This document shows, piece by piece, positions 43,731 to 64,000 of a stretch of DNA of 64,000 nt (positions are counted from its first letter, which is position 1; the number at the start of each line of letters is the position of its first letter). A model generated the notes under the pieces. The model did not search any database and had not been told where the DNA came from. It worked only from the letters and a program-made list of their open reading frames with translations. The DNA comes from Paratrimastix pyriformis (Eukaryota > Preaxostyla > Paratrimastigidae): the NCBI GenBank assembly GCA_027972325.1, contig JAPMOS010000001.1, positions 715,001 through 779,000 on the forward strand, given 5' to 3'. The translations under genes were made by a program, and so were the position numbers.

Positions 43731-46700
43731 TTAGTGGAGGACCACCACGACATCCGGGGTGAAGATGGTCTCGTCGTCGACGTCATCGGGCTGGGCGGGG
43801 TCGGAGGCCGACAGGGACAGGGTCATGGTCTTCTTTGTGGGGGGCTCGTGGAAGAGATGCTGGTGGATCTCGGAGAGCCGCATCCGGAGGCGGTCCTTGT
43901 GGGCGGGGTTGGTCATGTCGTAGAACATGCCCTTGCCGGCGGTGACCATCTGCACACTCAAGTGGAGCTGGTCCTGGAAGTGGTTGATGACCTCGCCCAG
44001 GGTCACGTCGCCGTGCATCCGGATGACGTCGTGCCGGGTGTGCTTGGGCGGGACGGCCCGGACGCTCCACTTGAAGGAGCCCCCGGCCTTCTTGTACTCG
44101 GCCTCCTCGAGCTTGTACTGGGCGATCTGGGTCCGGAACTCGGTCGACTGCTCCACCGTGCGCGGGGGCAGCGGCTCAGCAAAGCCCCACACGTGGGTGG
44201 CGAGGTTGATGGAGCCGTTGGTGTACTTGGCAATATCCTGGGGGACGGGCGGAGGGGAGCGTCGTGAGTCGCGGGGAAGGGACGAGTCAGGCAGCAGCTC
44301 TGGAGACATCCAAGGGCGGGGCGCGCGGGGGAATGAGGGCGGGCGGGCGGGCGGGCGGGCGGACCTGGCAGCCCTGGACGAGGAGGTAGAGCTGGTTGAG
44401 GACGAGGCCCGTGACCATGGCCGTGGTGGTGGCCAGGGCGGGGATGATGCGCCCGGCGGCCGTCTTGACGGCCATCCGGTCGGTGGGCTCGATGTGGTAG
44501 TTGGCCCCGCGCAGGTTGGCGCAGGCCGTGCAGTAGTCCACATGGAAGTTGGCGTCTGGCGAGCACCACCGGAGGAAGGGCACGATGAGGCGCCACTGAC
44601 AGAGCAGTGCCCAAATCGATCGCCTCGGCGGGGTGGGGCGGGGTGCGGACCGTCATCCTTCTCGAACTTCTCGGGGTGGACGTGGGCCTGGTCGATGGCG
44701 GCCCGGGGCAGGCTGTCCCGGAGCCGGGCCACCAGGGCCTCCTCTTCCTCGGGGGTGTACTGGGGCGCGTCGGCCTTGTCCTTCTTCTCGCCCTCAGCGG
44801 GGGCGGCGGCGACTGGGGAGCGGAGGAAGAGCTGTGTCAAACCACGGGGCGGGGGCCGCGCGGGCGGGCAGACCCTTCTTGGGCACGTAGACGGGCACCT
44901 GGACCCGGCTCAGCACCTGGCAGAAGTACTCGTAGTCGGCCTGGCTGTTGATGCGGTGCTGGGGCACCCCGAGGGCGTGGGCCCGCAGGTTGGCGGCGCA
45001 GTGGACGAACTGCATGTGCAGCACGTTGGTCGGGTCGAAGATCATGGGCACGGGCATCCGCTTGACGCCCGTCCAGAAGGGCTGACCCGTGGTCGTGTCC
45101 ACGGCGTCGGCGGGGAAGTTGGTCAGCAGCTGCACGATTTGGTCTGCGCGCAGAGGCGGGTGGGGGTGATGACGGAAGGCGGTGAGTCCCACGGAGACCG
45201 ATGCCCATCGCCTTTCCGACGCCCCTTCGAACCCTTCTCGAATGCCCCTTCCCATCTCGGGGGGGGGGGGGGGGGGGGGGCGACGACGGCGACAGACCAT
45301 GGAAGAACTGCTGGAACTTGATGCGGCCCCAGGCGATGCACTTCTCGAAGGTGAAGGGGGCGTCGGCGACGGCCTCGTGGACGAGCTCGAGGGCCTCGCG
45401 CTGCTCGGAGATGTTCATCCGGCTGGGCAGCTCGGCCAGCCACTTGGCGGGGTCCTTGGCGAAGTCCTTCAGCACGGAGATGTTCAGCTTGAAGAGCTTG
45501 TTGTACGAGCCGATGGTCTCCTCCGAGACGGACCACTCGATGCAGTGCATGATCAGGTTGGGGAAGTTCCTGCGGCGCCCCACGGGGGGAAAAAGGCGAG
45601 AGGGTGGGCGGGTGAGCGATGCGGTGTCACATGAGGCTGCCAAACTGTGTCCTGCCATCCAGGGCCAGGGCCAGGGCCAGGGCCAGGGCCAGGGCCAGGG
45701 CCAGGGCCAGGGCCAGGGCCAGGGCCAGGGCCAGGGCCAGGGCCAGGGCAAGGACAGGGTCGGGGCGGACCGGATGGTGCACATGGGCACGCCGACACCC
45801 TCGGCGAAGTCGGTCGAGTCGCTGTAGCACTCGGTCTTGCCGGGCAGCACGACCTGGACGTTGGCCATGGTCCCGGTGGTGCCGCTCTCGAGCAGGGGCT
45901 TCCGGTGGGCGGCGCACTTGCCGTCGGTGTAGGTCCGGGCGGCCACGTTGTCGAGGGCGTTGACGGCCACGTCAATGGCGGGCCAGAAGGCCTCGTCGGT
46001 GAAGACGTTCTCGGTGTCCTCACCCACGGCGCTCGTGTGGCAGGTGATCTGCAGGCCCGAGTTCATCTCACGCATGGCCCGCGCCGCGGCGGTACTCTTG
46101 TGGGAGCCGATGTCTGTCCCGGGTGGGTGGGTGGGTGGGTGGGTGGGTGGTGGATGGTGAACAGAGAGCGGGGGGGAGGGGCGATGGAGCGGAAGAAGGG
46201 TGGTGGTGTGGGCAGGAGGGCGGACCGCGCGGGCGGAAGAGGAACTGGCGGTTGAGGTTGGACTTCTCGATGGTGTCCATGTCGGTCATGGTGACCAGGC
46301 CGCCCTCGGCCTCCAGCCCGACGCCCATCATGGCGAACCCCTTGGCGAACTCGCAGCCCAGGGCCCCGGCGCCCACCAGGAAGGGCTTCAGGGCGCCCAG
46401 CTTCTTCTGGGTCTCGGCCCCGAAGACCATCCGCTGGCCGTCGTACCGGTTGCCCACGGGCAGGTACTGGGCCGGCTCGCCCATGGTCTCGGGCAGGATC
46501 TCGGCAATGTCGAAGTGCAGCCACTGGTGCAGCGGGGTGAACTTGCCCGTGACCTTCATCACCTCCTGGGCCACCACCCCGCCCAGGAAGGCCGCCATGG
46601 GGCACAGGTTGCCCTGGACGTGCATCGCCAGCCGGCGCAGCAGGGGCGCGGCCTCGTCGAAGCTCTCAAGGCAGAACTCGCGGGCGACCTGGGCAAGGGG

Positions 46701-47299
46701 GAGTGAAAGTCGGGCGGAAACCGGGAGGCGGGGATGAGCCGATGACGGATGGAGTGGCAGAGGAGGGGAGGGTGCGGGGTGGGGGCGGGCGGGTGCGGAC
46801 GGGCTCCCAGGTGGTGGGCAGGGCCGCGTTGGCGCGCTTGGCGGCCTCGTTGATGGTGCGGGCGCATTCGACCAGCTTCTCGGCGTCCTCGGGGTTGGCG
46901 GGCCGGGGCAGCTGGCCCCCGAAGCGCTGGGTGTAGGCGTACAGGGCCCGGACGAAGAGGTGCAGGGTGCCGGGCCGGTTGAGGCCCATCTTGCGGAAGT
47001 CCACCTCGAGCAGCTGCTGGGGCAGGTCGCCCAGCTTGGGGCACCGGAAGGGCGCCACCACCGAGTCGGACAGGGAGCTCATCGACATGCGCAGGGGCAC
47101 CTTGTGGGCCACCACCTGGCCGCTGCCGTAGACGTGGGCCCCCAGGGTGCGCCCGTCGACGGGGTGGAAGCCCTCGACCTCGTTGCCCTCCTCCAGGACG
47201 AAGGTGATCTTAGTCGTCTCCCCGACCCGGTACCGGCCCGTGTTCAGCGACTCGCAGCCCCGCACCTCGGTGAAGTGGATCGGGTCGCCTGCATGGGCA

Positions 47300-47333
<34 letters not shown>

Positions 47334-48289
47334 ACGTGAGACCAAGGGGGAGGAGGGGAGGGCAGCCAGAGGAGGGGCGGATGCGTGTGTGGGGAGAACC
47401 TCCAAGGGGGGGGGGGGGGGGGTGGCGGACCGGTCTGGAAGGGCATCCCGGCGGCGGTGGACTCCTCAGCCAGAGTCACGATGCACTTCGCGTCGTTCGA
47501 GATCATGGACACGGTGCCCTGGGCGGCAGGAAGTCCGTCCTGATCCTCCACGGTGTGGATGGGGCCAAAGTCCGAGAAGGCGAACGCCACCGGGCCGGCA
47601 GAGCAGGCCATCAGGAAGGTGATGGGCCGGTGCTGGTGACGGCAGAACTCGTTCAGCAGGCACAGCTCGATAAATGAGTGCGCGAGGGGGTCAGCAATAA
47701 CGACGCACCCGAAGCAGTACTTCTCAATCAGCGCAGGAGTCAGAGGCTCGGTTGCGGCTGGAGATCTGATCGGTGAGTTTGTCGAAAACTGAGGAGGGCC
47801 AGACCAAGAACCTCGACATAGCTATTCAGCTCACGGAGGCGAGGCAGGCAAGCCTCCGCACGAGGACGTTGGGCTTGGACGTCGGCCTCAGTCAGATAGA
47901 ACTGGCTGGAGAGATCGGTCCACCGAGCGGGGGTGGGATCATGAATCACAACCTACAAGACGCAAACGAAGAACGAAAGACTCAGCGAACCATGATCGTT
48001 CATCGGGCGCAGACCTTGGCCACACCGGCGAGAATGACGTTCTTGGCGATCTCGACACCGACGCCAGTCATACCGACAATGAGGACGGAGAGATGCTATG
48101 AATAAAACGGAATGGATCCGAAAGAGGGTTAACCGGCGGTGAGCAGGGGGTATTGGTATGATCGACGAAAAAAGTGCGAACCTGCATCCGCTTCTGTGCC
48201 TCAATACCAAGGGTAGCAATCTGCCGCGAGTAGAGGTCCGTATCAACATCGCCGACCTTTGTCTTGACCTGGAAAGTCGTGAGATCCAT
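43731..48289 (-). CDS. UBA1: Ubiquitin-activating enzyme E1 (UBA1-type)
   Basis: E1 adenylates ubiquitin and passes it to E2 enzymes. The order is canonical. First is [20 protein letters not shown], then the inactive adenylation half ([20 protein letters not shown]), then [13 protein letters not shown] and [20 protein letters not shown]. The active ATP-binding half follows ([37 protein letters not shown]). Next come [19 protein letters not shown] and the catalytic cysteine in VPMCTIR (Cys codon 45779-45781) joined across an intron to [12 protein letters not shown]. Last is a ubiquitin-fold end ([20 protein letters not shown]) finishing TPDVVVVLH. The first exons are 48289-48182, 48095-48015 and 47952 onward; several introns begin GTCCGC or GTCTGC. 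An in-frame ATG at 48364 is an alternative start. Divergent from the CH-domain gene. Confidence 0.93.
45659..45751. repeat. (GGGCCA)n in an E1 intron
   Basis: Fifteen or so perfect hexamers, GGGCCA, lie in the intron that splits the E1 catalytic-cysteine motif (about 45771-45570). The sense strand reads TGGCCC. Confidence 0.94.
47304..47331. repeat. G-run in an E1 intron
   Basis: About 27 consecutive G (C on the sense strand) follow the exon carrying the E1 first catalytic-half region. A second G-run lies at about 47406-47422 in the same intron. Confidence 0.9.
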
Positions 48290-52100: not shown

Positions 52101-55100
52101 CGGTGGGACCCCCTCCTTCTGGACAGGCGAATCGAAAGCCCCCCGCCGGCCCTCAGGCTCGCCGACCTCACGCTGACGGACGCCTTCGCCCTGCACCCGC
52201 GCTTCAGTCAGCCGCGCCTCCCCCCCGCCGCCCGTAGACGCCCTGCCCCTCCTCGCCCTCACCGCTGCCGTTTCCCCTGTCTTCCCCTCCCTCACCACCC
52301 CCGCAGCCGTCCAGACGGGGACCCCCCTGGCGGAGGCCCTGCTGGCGCTGGTGCTGCGCTCGTCGACCTCGGCGCCCCTGACGGCTGACCCCAGCGGCCC
52401 GGGTGCGCCCCCGCCGCCGCCGCCGCCGGTCGATCCGTCCCTGGCCAGCGAGGCGGTCGGGCCCATCCTGACCCTCCTCCACCGCTTCGGGGGCGAGGTC
52501 AGTCCCCCCTCGCGCACCTCACCCTGCGGGGTTGCCACCACCAGCGCCGCCGTTCACAGTGTGTCGCCATCCTGGGATTTGCCCCTCATCCCCTCCCTCC
52601 CGCCCCGCCCCGCTGCCCGCAGCCCGAGCTTGGGCCCATCGTGACGGCCTTCCTGGCCAACGGGCTGCACGTGCTGCTGCTGCACGTGCCGGGGGCCATG
52701 CGCGTGCCGGCCCCGACGCCCTGCCCCCACCCGACGCCCCTGCTGGACCTGGTCCTGGCCAACAACGTCTCGGCCCTGCAGACGGCCGCCCTGGCGGGGG
52801 CCGAGGCGGGCAGCCGGCTGGTGGGGGCGGGCCTGGGAGTCCTGGTCGAGACCATCGTCCGCCTGGGCGCCCTCGGGCCGGCCGTGGCCGTGTCCCGGCT
52901 GGTGCGCGGGTACCTCAGCAGCCAGCAGCGGGCCGAGGGAGCCCACGACCACCCCTGCTCCACCGACGACCACCCCCATCGGGCCACCGTCGCCCGGGAG
53001 CTCCTCGAGCGGGTCGCTCTCGACGAGGAGGGCCCCGAGGTCCCCGAGACTGTCCCCTCGCCCCAGGTCCGGCGGCTCACCACCGTGCGGGGGAGGCGGC
53101 GGCGGCCTGCACATCCCCACCCCCACCCCCACCCACCCCCTCACCCCGTCCCTGGGATCCGTCTTGGGCGCAGGCTGACGCGACCCCGGCCCTCGTGCCC
53201 GCCCGCTCGGCCTCGCCGCCCCAGCCCAGCGCCCGCTCCACCAAACCCTCCGGCCGCCCCGCCCCCGCCCCTGCGCCCACCGCCTCGACCTCGATCGCCT
53301 CCCAGCGCAAATCCACCCGCCGTGCCTCCCCCCCTGCCCCCGCCCCCGCCCCCGCCCCTCCCCGTCCTCACCCGAGCCCGAGCCCGAGCCCGAGCCGACG
53401 GCCCCCTCGGCGCGCAGCTCGAAGAGTTGGCAGCCCGCGGCACCCGCGGCTCCACCGGCCAGGCAGCCGCCACTCGCCGAGGCCGCCGCCCCCCCGCCGG
53501 CGCCCCGGGCCCCCGCGCTCCCCGCCAGCAACAGCCAGCCAGGGAGGAGCCTGCAGCGCTGCTCCCCCAGCCGAGCCAGCGGTCCGTTGGGGCCACCCGC
53601 AAGGGGGCTGCAGATTGGGGTGGCGGTGCGATGGAGAGAGGAGAAGTGCAGTGCGGTGCGGTGCAGAGGAGGGCCGTCGGGGCTCATGCCTCTGCGTGCC
53701 TTTTCCCCGCCCTCCAGCAAGGCGCCTCTTCCTCCAACCGCCGCTCCGGCACCCGTCGGGTCGCCCGGGTCGCAGCCGCCCTCGGTCCGCGCCTCCCAGG
53801 CCAGCGAAGAGCCGTCCTCCGTCAGCGAGCGGGGCGCCCGGGTGGTCGAAGAGGCCCGCCGGAAACGCCTCGAACGGTCGACTTCGTGCGCGTGCCCCTT
53901 CCCCCTCCTCCTCCTCCTCCCGACTGACCGGTGGGGCACTCTGGGGGGTGGGAACAGGGAAGCCGAGAAGGCTCGCCAGGAGGCCGCCCAGCAGGAGGCC
54001 GAGAACAAGCAGCGCGAGAAGGAGCGCGAGCGGCGGGTCTGCCGCCCCTCTTCAGTCCGCCGCTCGGAGCTCACGATCCTCTGTGCGGCCTCTTGCTCCT
54101 CTCCCTCCAGGACCGGCTGGCCCGGCAGCGAGCCCAGAAGCTGATGGAGCAGCAGGAAGCTGCGGGCCCCGACAGCCCCTCAACCTCAGCCGCCCCTGCG
54201 GTCCATGCGCCTGTCCCAGCCCCTGCCCCGGCCGCTGCAGGGGCACCCGGCGGGGGAGATGCGGCCGCCAAGAGCGCGCACGACCTGCACCTTGAGCGGA
54301 TCCAGGCCCAGAAGGAGCTCGAGGCCCTCCGCGCCATGCAACAGAGCGCAGACAGGCGCCACCGTATGCAGCAGCGCAAACAGGCCAACGCGACCCTCCT
54401 CCAGGTCGGACGACCCTCTCCCCTCCGCAGCTCTGCGCCCTCTCTCTCGGATGTGACCCACTGGCTCACCACACACACCCTCCGGTGGGGCACGCCGGGC
54501 ACGTGCGCATCTGCAGAAGCACCACGAGGACCTGGTGCGCCAGGCGGCCGAGAAGGCGGCCCGGGAGGCCGAGGATGCGGCCCTGCAGAAGGAGCGTGAG
54601 GAGAAGCGCAAGCAGCGCGAGCAGGCCGAGCAGAACGCCCGGAAGGCCATGATCGAGGAGTACAAGCGCAGGATGGCCGAGGAGCAAGCCGTCTGCTCCC
54701 CCTTCGCTGCGACGGGGCGCCTTGCCTCGCCCTGGGTGGATTGAGGGTTCCCCCGGATTGGTCTTGATCCGGCGGTTGCGGTGTGGTGGGTTTTCCTTCC
54801 TCGACAGCGCGAGCGGCAGGATCGCGAGAAAGCCGAGGCAGAGCTCGCCGCGGCGCGGCGCAGGGCCATCGAAGAATTCAAGAAGCGCAGGCAGGTCCGC
54901 TCCTCCTCCAGGTGACCATCGATCCCCAAATTTGGCTCGCAGGACCGCAAGGACGAGGAGCGGCAGATGGTGGATGACGTCAACACGGCTCTGGACAAGC
55001 ACCCCCACCAGCTCGCACGCCGCCACAGGGGCGCGACCAGTCCTCCCAAGGCCCAGCCCGCTGAAGCTGTGGATGGCTCGCCAGCCCCGGCCGCCGCCAC

Positions 55101-55555: not shown

Positions 55556-58500
55556 ATGTCTCAATATCCCTGGAGGTCAATGGATCGGCTCGCCCGGCTC
55601 AGCCTCGTCAACAAAGTCGTTTCTGAGCTCCAGCACCACAGAAAGGTTTGGTGAAAAGGACTATTGATTTTGTCTCACACATATCGCACAAATAGGAACC
55701 TGACAAGGACCTAGCTGAATTTATCGTCCATCTCGCAGAGGAATCCCATGATTTGTCATCATTTCAAGCAAACCTCCAAGAAAATGATTGCGACTTTGAG
55801 CCAGAGCTGATATCCATTCTCTGGAATGTCATTGAAAAGATGAGTTCCATCTCTCAGACTGTTGCTGCAGTCGAGAGGTCAGCTGCCACAGCAGCTCTGC
55901 CATCTAGCATCCCTGCAACCGCAGCTGCTGCCGCGGAAGCAGATGCCGCCAGGAAGCACGGCCGCGATGGCGCCATGGCTGATGGGGGGCGCAAGCAGCC
56001 TCGGTCAGGTGAGAGGTCACCTCGCGGCGGCGAGCATGGAGCTGGATTCGATGAAGATTCAGGCTTCCGGGTGGGTTGTGGGAGCAGTGGCTTCAACTGG
56101 GAGGCCGGTGATGAACGCGAGGAGCGCCACATTGTTCCCCCACGGCGGGAGCACCAGCCGGACGACGAGGCTCCTGTGAAGTATAAGATTTATCGGGGTC
56201 GGATCCGGGACATTAAGCAATTTGGCGCGTTTGTTGAAATCTACGGTATCAAGGGGCGCAAGCAAGGTCTGCCCACACTCCCCCCCCGGCCCAGGCGGGG
56301 CTTAGACTCCTTTGCCACAGGTATGGTGCACAATACCGACAAGCCGAAGGGGGCTGACTTCCGGATGAACGCCGATGTTTGGGTGAAGGTCGTGGCCTGC
56401 GCGGGCAGCAGGATCTCCCTCACCATGCGCGAGGTCGACCAGAGCACCGGCGATGATCTCTTCCCCCGCAGCGCAACCGGTGAGTCCGGGCCTGATGCAG
56501 CCAACCCCTCGGGGCCGAGCCACAGCGGGGTCGTCGTCGACGACGACCCGACGACGAGGGGCCCCAGGCGCCGCCTGCCATCGCCCGAGCGCTGGGAACT
56601 CAACCAGCTCCTCAAGGCCGGCGTCGTCCCGGCCCAGGACCTGCCCGGCTTCGACCCCGATCAGGGCGTGTTGGCCGAGGCCGATGTGGACGAGGAGGAC
56701 GTCGAGGTTGAATTGAACGAGAACGAGCCGGCCTTCCTCAAGGGACAGACCCAGCGGGCTGTCAACCTCTCCCCAATCAGAGTCCGTCCCCCGCCCTTAC
56801 GGAACCCGAGCCTTGATCTCGACTGCCCCCCCACACACACACACGCACACACACACGCACAGACACACACAGACACACACGCCGCCACGCCAAGCCACTC
56901 TAACTCCACGCCACTCTAACTCCACTCATCGCCGCCCTCTCCAAACGTCATCCTCTTCCAGGTGATCCCCGTCCCTCAGGGCACCATGCACCGGGCGGCC
57001 ATGACCCAGAGCGGGCTCGTGAAGGAGCGCAAGATCCAGCAGGAGGCCCAGCGGAACGCCATGCTCGACTCGATCCCCAAGGATCTCAACCGCGGCTGGG
57101 TGGACCCCATGCCCGAGGCCAACGAGCGCCACATCGCCCAGGAGCTCCGCGGTATCGGTCCGCCATCCACCAGCCCCCGCCACCCGCGCCCCGTCGTTGT
57201 GTGTCTGGCTGCGCTCGCTCCATCGGGCTGCCTGCTCTGCTCTGCTCCGGTCATCATCGGTTAACTCTCCCCCAGGTTTGATGGGCAGCGAGCTGCCCGA
57301 GTGGAAGCGGGCCTCGATGGGGGAGCGGCCCAGCTTCGGCAAGTTCAGCAAGAAGCCCATCAAGGAGCAGCGCGAGGAGCTGCCCATCTACCGCTTCCGG
57401 GCGGACATCCTGCGGGCCCTGACCCAGAACCAGATGCTCATCGTCATCGGCGAGACCGGCTCGGGCAAGACCACCCAGATGACCCAGTACCTGGCCGAGG
57501 AGGGCTACGCGGCCCGCGGCAGGATCGGCTGCACCCAGCCCCGCCGTGTGGCGGCCAGCTCGGTGGCCAAGCGTGTCGCCGAGGAGTTCGGCTGCCGGCT
57601 GGGCGAGGAGGTCGGCTACAGCATCCGTTTCGAGGACTGCACCGGCCCCGACACAATCATTAAGTCTGTCGCCCGGCTCCGCGCCCCCGGCATCCTCCCC
57701 TCTCGACTCTCGCTGACCTCTTCGGCGCGCCCTGCCCCCCCCAGGTACATGACCGATGGTATGCTGCTGCGCGAGTGCCTGGCGGACCGGGACCTGAGCA
57801 GCTACTCGGTGATCATGCTCGACGAGGCCCACGAACGCACCATCCACACGGACGTCCTGTTCGGGCTGGTCAAGGACTGCTGCAGGCGGCGGCCCGACCT
57901 CAAGCTGATCGTCACCTCGGCCACCCTGGACGCCGAGAAGTTCTCGGCCTACTTCAACAACTGCCCCATCTTCACCATCCCCGGGCGCACCCACCCCGTG
58001 GAGATCTTGTCTGTTCGCGCCCCACCACCCCACCACCCCCGCCCCACGCGCACCACCCGCCCGATTGTCTCGTCTCATGCCCCCCCCCCCGCCTGCTTTC
58101 CCTTGACCTTATGCCCGTGCAGCTACGCGAAGGAGCCCGAGGCGGACTACCTGGACGCGGCCCTGGTGACGGTCATGCAGATCCACCTGACCGAGCAGCC
58201 GGGCGACATCCTGCTCTTCCTGACGGGCCAGGAGGAGATCGACACCAGCTGCGAGATCCTCTACGAGCGCATGAAGGCCCTCGGGTCCCGGGTGCCCAAG
58301 CTGATCATCCTGCCCGTCTACTCGGCCCTGCCCTCGGAGGTGCAGACCCGCATCTTCGACCCGGCCCCCCCGGGCACCCGCAAGTGCATCCTGGCCACCA
58401 ACATCGCCGAGGCCTCGCTGACCATCGACGGCATCAAGTTTGTCGTCGACCCGGGCTTCGCCAAGCAGAACTGCTTCAACCCCCGCCTCGGGATGGACTC

Positions 58501-60030
58501 CCTCATGGTCACCCCCATCTCCCAGGCCTCCGCCCGGTCCGCGCCGCCACCCGCACCCATGCCCAGACCCATGCCCATCCGCCTCCCCCTCAGTCTCATC
58601 CCCCATCCCATCCCGTGCGCTCATTCGCGCTGCTCGTTCTCATTCACACACAGCCAACGTGCCGGCCGTGCCGGTCGGACGGGGCCCGGCAAGTGCTACC
58701 GGCTGTACACCGAGGCGGCCTACAAGAACGAGCTGCTGCCCAACACGGTGCCCGAGATCCAGCGGGCCAACCTGGGCAACACGGTGCTGATGCTGAAGGC
58801 CATGGGCATCAACGACCTGCTCAACTTCGACTTCATGGACCCGCCCCCCCGCCAGACCCTGCTCTCGGCCCTCGAGAACTTGTACGCCCTCGAGGCCCTC
58901 GATGATGAGGGCCTCCTCACCAGGCTCGGCCGCAAGGTCCGCCAGCCCCCTCCGCCAGCCCCCTCCGCCAGCCCCTCCGCCAGCCCCCTCCGCCAGCCCC
59001 CTCCGCCAGCCCCCTCCGCCAGCCCCCTCCGCCAGCCCCCTCCGCCAGCCCCCGTCCTCATCGACCCCTCGCCCTCGGTGGATGCTCATGACGCCCTTCC
59101 GTCCCTCCCCCCCCGGCAGATGGCCGAGTTCCCGCTGGAGCCGCCCCTGTCGAAGATGCTGATCACCTCGGTGGACCTGCGGTGCAGCGACGAGATCCTG
59201 ACCGTGGTGGCCATGCTCTCCGTCGAGAACGTCTTCTACCGGCCCAAGGAGAAGCAGGCCCAGGCCGACCAGAAGAAGGCCAAGTTCTTCCAGCCCGAGG
59301 GGGACCACCTGACCTTCCTGGCCGTCTTCCAGGCGTGGCAGCACAACGGGTTCTCCTCGCCCTGGTGCTACGAGAACTTCATCCAGGTCCGGGCCATGCG
59401 CCGCGCCCAGGATGTCCGCAAGCAGCTCCTCACCATCATGGACAGGTCCGCCGCCCCCCCCCACCCCCCCCCCCTGTCCCCCGGGGACCGGGTGCTCAGC
59501 AGTCAATCTTGGGGGATGGCCCTGGGTGCGCAGGTACAAGCTGGACGTGGTCTCGGCGGGCAAGAACTTCAACCGCATCCGGCAGGCCATCGTGGCCGGG
59601 TTCTTCAACCACGCCGCCCGGCGGGACCCCACCGAGGGCTACAAGTCGCTGGTCGAGAACCAGACGGTGTACATCCACCCCTCGTCGGCCCTTTTCCAGA
59701 AGAACCCCGAGTACGTGCTCTACCACGAGCTGGTCCTGACCACCAAGGAGTACATGCGCAACGTCTGCCAGATCGACCCCCGCTGGCTGACCCAGTTCGC
59801 CCCAAGTTCTACAAGGTCCACCCCCACCCACCCCACCCCCACCCCCTCGCCGCCCTCGTCTTCTCACCCGTCTGTGCCTTCGTTGCGCCCATTGGTGGTT
59901 GCCCCGGCTGCAGACGGTGGACCCGCACCATCTGAGCAAGCGCAAGAAGCAGGAGCGCATCGAGCCCCTGTACAACCGCTACCAGGACCCCAACGCGTGG
60001 CGTATCAGCAAGCAGCGCAGGGGCCGCTAA
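55556..60030 (+). CDS. DHX8: DHX8/Prp22-type DEAH-box pre-mRNA splicing helicase
   Basis: Prp22/DHX8 proofreads exon ligation and releases spliced mRNA. Eleven exons were delimited from protein conservation: 55556-55645, 55696-56266, 56321-56781, 56962-57157, 57276-57663, 57745-58008, 58123-58536, 58654-58936, 59120-59445, 59534-59815, 59914-60030. They give about 1130 residues. Domains in order: N-terminal helices ([17 protein letters not shown]), S1 ([19 protein letters not shown]), RecA-1 ([39 protein letters not shown]), RecA-2 ([26 protein letters not shown]), winged-helix/ratchet ([20 protein letters not shown]) and OB ([16 protein letters not shown]). The end is [12 protein letters not shown]. 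The human RS-rich linker is shortened. One C is missing from a homopolymer near 59800, shifting the frame just before the last intron. The ATG at 55580 is an alternative start. Confidence 0.96.
56824..56880. repeat. (CA)n in DHX8 intron 3
   Basis: A CACACACG/CAGACA microsatellite lies in the 180-base intron 56782-56961. Confidence 0.9.
58937..59060. repeat. (CTCCGCCAGCCCC)n in DHX8 intron 8
   Basis: About eight copies of a 13-bp C-rich unit, CTCCGCCAGCCCC with shorter variants, begin at the 5' splice site GTCCGCCAG itself. The repeat unit therefore contains copies of the splice-site sequence TCCGCCAG. Confidence 0.9.
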
Positions 60031-60482: not shown

Positions 60483-60622
60483 AGGGAGGAGAGGAGGAGG
60501 AGGAGGAGGAGGAGGAGGAGGAGGAGGAGGAGGAGGAGGAGGAGGAGGAGGAGGAGGAGGAGGAGGAGGAGGAGGAGGAGGAGGGAGGAGGAGGAGGAGG
60601 AGGAGGAGGAGGAGGAGGGAGG
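60483..60622. repeat. (GGA)n microsatellite
   Basis: About 45 GGA units with a few GGGA interruptions lie between the convergent stops of DHX8 and the LRR gene. It is purine-rich on the DHX8 strand and pyrimidine-rich on the LRR-gene strand. Confidence 0.95.

Positions 60623-60749: not shown

Positions 60750-64000
<3,251 letters not shown>

Follow-up and report, generated by a model that had tools for sequence, protein, structure and literature searches.

A GTCYGY 5' splice-site consensus in Paratrimastix pyriformis and a complementary change at the 5' end of its U1 genes

The stretch analysed here (the window) comprises 64,000 nucleotides of Paratrimastix pyriformis DNA, positions 715,001 to 779,000 of contig JAPMOS010000001.1, and includes two genes whose exon edges can be placed from protein evidence: DHX8/PRP22 and UBA1, the latter encoding ubiquitin-activating enzyme E1. 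Most of their introns begin with GTCYGY in place of the usual GTRAGT, and the subject of this report is that donor (5' splice site) sequence, its spread through the genome, and the U1 small nuclear RNA (snRNA) that would read it. A first-pass annotation of the window had described ten DHX8 introns with the donors given below, and re-reading the sequence confirmed all ten. Introns 1 to 8 are placed by the donor read together with the protein alignment.

55580..60030, + strand: DHX8/PRP22 gene, 11 exons and 10 introns, from the spliced protein of exons 1-10 compared with human DHX8
55646..55695, + strand: DHX8 intron 1, donor GTTTGG (an exception)
56267..56320, + strand: DHX8 intron 2, donor GTCTGC
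56782..56961, + strand: DHX8 intron 3, donor GTCCGT
57158..57275, + strand: DHX8 intron 4, donor GTCCGC
57664..57744, + strand: DHX8 intron 5, donor GTCTGT (full complement of U1 ACAGAC)
58009..58122, + strand: DHX8 intron 6, donor GTCTGT
58537..58653, + strand: DHX8 intron 7, donor GTCCGC
58937..59119, + strand: DHX8 intron 8, donor GTCCGC
59446..59533, + strand: DHX8 intron 9, donor GTCCGC, from the donor read, beyond the portion of the alignment examined
59816..59913, + strand: DHX8 intron 10, donor GTCCAC (an exception), placed by eye, the frame of the preceding exon being broken

The spliced protein of exons 1-10, cut at residue 1080, matched human DHX8 (6icz_Y) with 1358 bits. The alignment was examined to about residue 967, a point that intron 9 lies past; it had no gaps near introns 1-8 and was gap-free throughout residues 447-943. 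All ten introns (55646-59913) have AG at the 3' end. Exon 10 (59534-59815) breaks frame near its end relative to homologues, through an assembly error or in reality, so that the last junction (59815/59914) rests on a by-eye reading of local sequence. No P. pyriformis transcript for DHX8 was among the 120 matches listed.

Transcript-level evidence came from UBA1. Its top database match was a protein (P0121) derived from GAFH01000746.1, part of a transcriptome reported for Trimastix (now Paratrimastix) pyriformis strain RCP-MX (PMC3596361), and the window encodes all 1075 residues of that protein without a mismatch, split over 11 stretches. When each junction was slid over about 12 bases, between 2 and 6 placements yielded the transcript protein, and at all ten junctions exactly one of these was GT-AG. 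The introns below are those sole GT-AG placements.

43734..48071, - strand: UBA1 gene, 11 exons, exact match to the transcript-derived protein
47953..48014, - strand: UBA1 intron, donor GTCTGC
47758..47804, - strand: UBA1 intron, donor GTCTGG
47289..47430, - strand: UBA1 intron, donor GTCCGC
46689..46800, - strand: UBA1 intron, donor GTCCGC
46114..46225, - strand: UBA1 intron, donor GTCCGC
45570..45770, - strand: UBA1 intron, donor GTCCGC
45144..45297, - strand: UBA1 intron, donor GTCTGT
44813..44873, - strand: UBA1 intron, donor GTCTGC
44556..44650, - strand: UBA1 intron, donor GTCCGC
44238..44364, - strand: UBA1 intron, donor GTCCGC

Every UBA1 donor is thus GTCYG, and the outcome that the first-pass annotation had named as fatal to its proposal, true junctions shifted to GTRAGT sites, did not appear. 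The ten introns have the GT-AG ends of U2-type introns and lack the GURAGU donor. Over both genes (20 donors), C occupied +3 in 19, a pyrimidine +4 in 20, G +5 in 19, and a pyrimidine +6 in 18. GTCYG was present in 18 of the 20, versus 5.9% of the window's 5,736 GT sites on both strands (binomial P ~1e-20). As to a second transcript-supported gene, SRP receptor alpha on contig C441 had no P. pyriformis transcript among the 120 matches listed, the best being from Trimastix_PCT.

The same donor pattern was evident across the genome. The assembly searched has 495 contigs and 56,060,509 bases; the published one is given as 633 scaffolds and 56,627,582 bp, with 60.94% G+C (PMC10703272). CAGGTCYGY occurred 6,920 times (3489 + 3431) versus 1,921 (957 + 964) for the reversed pattern, while CAGGTRAGY was not enriched (1,191, 629 + 562, versus 1,363, 678 + 685, reversed), so that the other outcome named beforehand as fatal, a consensus dominated by GTRAGT or GTATGT, did not appear either. 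On C441, comparison with an order-3 Markov expectation gave 237 GTCTGT versus 83.1, 174 GTCCGT versus 77.8, 193 GTCCGC versus 143.5, and 7 GTAAGT versus 6.2.

A gene finder with a codon model seeded from the DHX8 exons, self-trained over four rounds and told only that donors are GT and acceptors AG, was run on both strands of the window and of one 200-kb stretch of C441 (200001-400000), 264 kb of 56 Mb in all. It returned 79 genes of at least 300 coding bases, with 223 introns. Their donors had C at +3 in 83%, C or T at +4 in 59% and 18%, G at +5 in 74%, C or T at +6 in 50% and 32%, and G at -1 in 60%; background GT sites (n = 26,020) had +3C in 32% and +5G in 34%, and decoy donors GA, TG, CT and AC, with tables from the GT training, gave +3C in 40-52% and +5G in 18-25%. 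GTCYG began 130 of the 223 introns, GTRAG one and GTATG one. When a donor model was trained as well (273 introns), +3C rose to 90% and +5G to 87%, with 199 GTCYG, one GTATG, no GTRAG or GTRAGT, and a purine at +3 in 16. These results confirm that the GTCYGY donor consensus is real and genome-wide.

A search of the assembly with the Rfam U1 family (RF00003), in which 41 of 992 candidates were scored so that U1 counts are counts of genes found, gave 8 matches on 8 contigs, all full-length over positions 1-166, with E values from 2.0e-10 to 3.7e-13. All eight genes begin ATACAGACCTTGC, and their 5' end has AUACAGACC instead of AUACUUACC; where the usual U1 5' end has ACUUACCU, all eight have ACAGACCU. 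ACAGAC, the exact complement of GTCTGT, thus stands in every copy where the Rfam consensus has ACUUAC. In the copy compared in full (L001), the first 12 nucleotides differ from the Rfam consensus AUACUUACCUGG by U5 to A, U6 to G and G11 to U, with 1-10 differing only at 5 and 6. This copy matches Rfam at GAUCA of loop I, CAUAAU before the Sm site and the UUCG terminal loop; as the one copy aligned, it has loop I, an Sm-site region whose U run is interrupted (AAUGUUUGG), and terminal stem-loop IV. Folded alone, it was more stable than shuffled sequences (z -3.4).

A conventional U1 was sought over the whole assembly with the pattern ATACNNACCT-N12-22-GATCA. None of the 13 matches in assembled DNA fitting this pattern had TT at positions 5-6 (a reversed control gave 1 match); they comprised the eight U1 genes, all AG, and five others with GG, GG, GA, TG and AG. 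The motif CCCATAA was found upstream of all 18 snRNA loci printed, of 29 fetched (U1 8, U2 4, U4 2, U5 2, U6 2), starting about 54-67 bases upstream of the RNA by eye, with TCCCATAA in 17 of the 18.

CCCATAA upstream of the RNA: L001-L008, L009, L012, L013, L015, L016, L018, L021, L025, L048, L049

CCCATAA is likely to be a promoter element common to the U1, U2, U4, U5 and U6 genes, and its presence upstream of the U1 genes argues that they are real snRNA genes. The assembly has nine full U2 matches and one partial, seven U5 and two U4; the U2, U4, U5 and U6 families all exceeded their Rfam cut-offs, U4 being assigned by family score alone. By eye, U2 has GTAGTA, U5 CCTTTTACT and U6 ACAGAGA, which we take to be the usual functional segments. 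All four U6 matches keep GATACAGAGA.

U1 ACAGACCU complements AG|GUCUGU base for base. With the P. pyriformis donor consensus it is complementary, completely at +3 and +5 and, for GTCCGC donors, incompletely at +4 and +6. The mean computed duplex energy for the 20 DHX8 and UBA1 donors was -7.89 kcal/mol with the organism's own U1 versus -3.65 with canonical U1; predicted introns gave -5.94 versus -3.52 (GT-only model) and -6.71 versus -3.64 (trained model), and 3000 sampled GT sites -4.19 versus -3.58. In the 192 trained-model donors that have +3C and +5G, purines were about three times rarer than expected at +4 and likewise at +6 (18 versus 62.0 at each position), and U was favoured among pyrimidines at +6 (71 versus 53.6 expected, s.d. 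5.9).

Taken together, we favor, with a probability of about 0.92, a major (U2-type) spliceosome with a donor recoded to G|GTCYGY, read by a U1 in which AUACAGACC replaces AUACUUACC in every gene found. U1 nucleotides 3-10 would pair with AG|GUCUGU, G6 facing +3C, A5 facing +4U, C4 facing +5G and A3 facing +6U; the donor would then pass to U6, in which the ACAGA box complements +2 to +6 (UCUGU) at every base. The donor consensus, the U1 and U6 gene sequences and their complementarity are directly observed, whereas we infer the expression of these RNAs, their pairing in vivo, the handover and the order of the evolutionary steps. In the usual system +4 lies opposite U1 pseudouridine 5 and also opposite the middle A of the U6 box, A suiting U1 and U suiting U6. 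In P. pyriformis U1 nucleotides 3-7 spell the same ACAGA as the U6 box, and a single site sequence therefore fits the two readings in turn. It is probable, though less firmly so than the recoding itself, that the U1:5' splice site interface is wholly recoded, the search having found no conventional U1 gene, with one code for initial and catalytic reading and the +4 conflict gone. The first-pass annotation had offered co-evolution of U1 as one of its alternatives, and the matching change in all eight genes supports it; the sequences it guessed, GCGGAC or ACGGAC, were wrong, the real ACAGAC being one base from the second. As to its other alternative, recognition through U6, U5 or a protein, the ACAGAG box of U6 is unchanged in all four matches and is itself complementary to +2 to +6 of the new site, so that a U6 contribution is possible.

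Several observations weigh against this reading. The best U1 copy scored 60.2 bits, below the Rfam gathering score of 69.5; the genes are called U1 on their architecture and on being the only U1-like gene family found, rather than on the cut-off. In the isolated fold of L001, nucleotides 4-8 pair with the Sm-site region, a region expected to be covered by Sm proteins in the small nuclear ribonucleoprotein. A PF06220 search found no U1-C zinc finger, although a finger split by an intron would escape it. A gene model with a free donor dinucleotide did not settle on GT (+1G 20%, +2T 30%) and placed introns loosely, with GTCCGC, GTCCGT and GTCTGT among its top four donors. On C441, GTCTGC did not exceed its Markov expectation (162 versus 155.7), while GTATGT (42 versus 12.2) and GTGAGT (70 versus 32.6) did, so a minority of other donor sites is possible. 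A further misfit is at +4, where simple A-U pairing predicts U and C was observed at least as often opposite U1 A5: among pyrimidines, U numbered 46 versus 53.4 expected neutrally (s.d. 5.9) in the trained model and 23 versus 37.0 (s.d. 4.9) in the GT-only model, the gene finder perhaps itself favoring C-rich donors. The commonest donor, GTCCGC, would place A.C at both +4 and +6 facing U1 and U6 alike. C at +4 could be explained if A.C forms a wobble pair, if the A is modified or if some other step exerts the selection; modification of U1 A3 and A5 (e.g. to inosine), by which +4 would accept C as readily as U, seems to us improbable.

The least unlikely rival is that donors are picked mainly by U6 (ACAGA:UCUGU) and proteins, the U1 change being drift or a late adjustment of little consequence. 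The U6 ACAGA box pairs on average with 3.5 of the five positions +2 to +6 in the 20 donors versus 2.1 over all GT sites in the 264 kb, and U1-C did not emerge from the PF06220 search; in the metamonads studied, U1-associated proteins are reported to be nearly absent (PMC6679479). However, both altered pairing bases of U1 fit the new consensus, G6 to +3C and A5 to the +4 pyrimidine, and U1 1-10 and GAUCA are otherwise conserved with a 5' end identical in all eight genes, which drift does not predict. We therefore consider a U6-led choice unlikely. Wrong gene models, contamination or assembly errors could be suspected from the frame break in DHX8 exon 10, from the one false junction (GTCTCC) that the trained gene finder added to all eight transcript donors in the part of UBA1 it covered, and from the two of six predicted proteins without a Pfam family (the other four matched families). 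Against this, the UBA1 exons match the transcript-derived protein exactly, and the decoy donors, the whole-genome counts and the finding of U1 on eight contigs all speak for a genuine signal, so that an artefact is very improbable.

Just as little likelihood attaches to the introns being U12-type or non-spliceosomal. A U12-like RNA (L053, G000:C432:103330-103530) is present, scoring 44.9 bits with a cut-off of 53, and contains ATGAGTAAGGAAAATA, presumably the conserved U12 core; this candidate suggests a minor spliceosome. However, the U12-type donor RTATCCTT did not occur on either strand of the 264 kb, a GT-AG placement exists for all ten transcript-placed introns, which contradicts such an origin for the bulk of introns, and the U2, U4, U5 and U6 genes are present.

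The recoded system shares much with the canonical one, in which ACUUACC pairs with GURAGU: a U2-type spliceosome, GT-AG ends, reading of -2 to +6 by U1, a U1 that fits the family model end to end, and U6 ACAGAG. It differs in having AG rather than UU at U1 5-6 and donors with C at +3 and a pyrimidine at +4. Across fungi, ACUUACC is reported to be unvarying in all species whose U1 was found (227 of 230 Saccharomycotina and 9 of 10 outgroups); the same report suggests that a change of U1 position 5 to A could compensate for +4U, but did not find this change (PMC10581693). P. pyriformis has exactly that change, together with a changed position 6. A naturally altered U1 5' end is likewise described in the diplonemid S. 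specki, where a second U1 gene with a run of C stands beside a conventional U1 and has comparable complementarity to the canonical site (PMC12621601); in P. pyriformis, unlike S. specki, the change is in every U1 copy found, and the consensus has shifted throughout the genome. Zhuang and Weiner in 1986 (as cited in PMC11732430) restored pairing to an altered donor by a base change in U1, the same principle as here, but as a laboratory suppressor of one splice-site mutation rather than a natural genome-wide state.

Within Preaxostyla, the oxymonad Streblomastix strix also has GT-AG introns (20 of 21), but with +3A, +4U and +5G as in yeast (PMC1501061), so the recoding is not shared by Preaxostyla as a whole. 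The switch probably occurred on the Paratrimastix side, Streblomastix being the only oxymonad compared. In the portions of the literature available to us we found neither a GTCYGY donor consensus nor the U1 of P. pyriformis described; in the genome paper (PMC10703272), the main text as available lacks snRNA and spliceosome terms, and 'splice' occurs once, in a reference.

Few eukaryotic interactions are as conserved as U1:5' splice site pairing, and changing it needs thousands of sites and U1 to move together; what is seen here has the look of a natural rewriting, on a genome-wide scale, of one of the best-conserved eukaryotic base-pairing rules. A culturable free-living flagellate in which this has happened offers nature's own test of the way a code of this kind shifts and of the roles of +3 to +6 in the U1 and U6 steps. 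In human and yeast, pseudouridines are made from the two U1 uridines (PMC3510501); both uridines are gone in P. pyriformis, which bears on whether their pseudouridines are needed. The consensus is also a warning for gene finders trained on GTRAGT.

Other components and intron features were surveyed alongside. The sole PF06220 match, a zf-U1 domain gene on contig C86 (L052, G000:C86:24760-25060) with a GTCCGT donor by eye, was rejected as U1-C because it reads like WBP4/FBP21. PF05971 (METTL16) had one match, on contig C332; bacterial control genomes also match this family. A scan of the 214 trained-model introns of at least 80 bases and without N (of 273) gave no clear branch-point motif: CTRAY was present near the 3' end in 18 of 214 versus 9 of 214 near the 5' end, the most enriched 5-mer was CCCCC, and TGACT occurred 7 times versus 0.3. 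Predicted introns of the window and C441:200001-400000 were C-rich up to a CAG acceptor, with C at -3 in 86% (GT-only model).

Around DHX8, by-eye reading revealed two more likely donors, GTCTGC and GTCCGC, at 54691 and 54895 in the gene upstream. Most of 58940-59055, within intron 8, is a tandem CTCCGCCAGCCCC-type repeat, and long GGA-type and AGGGA-type simple repeats lie 3' of the gene at 60490-60620 and 61335-61430.

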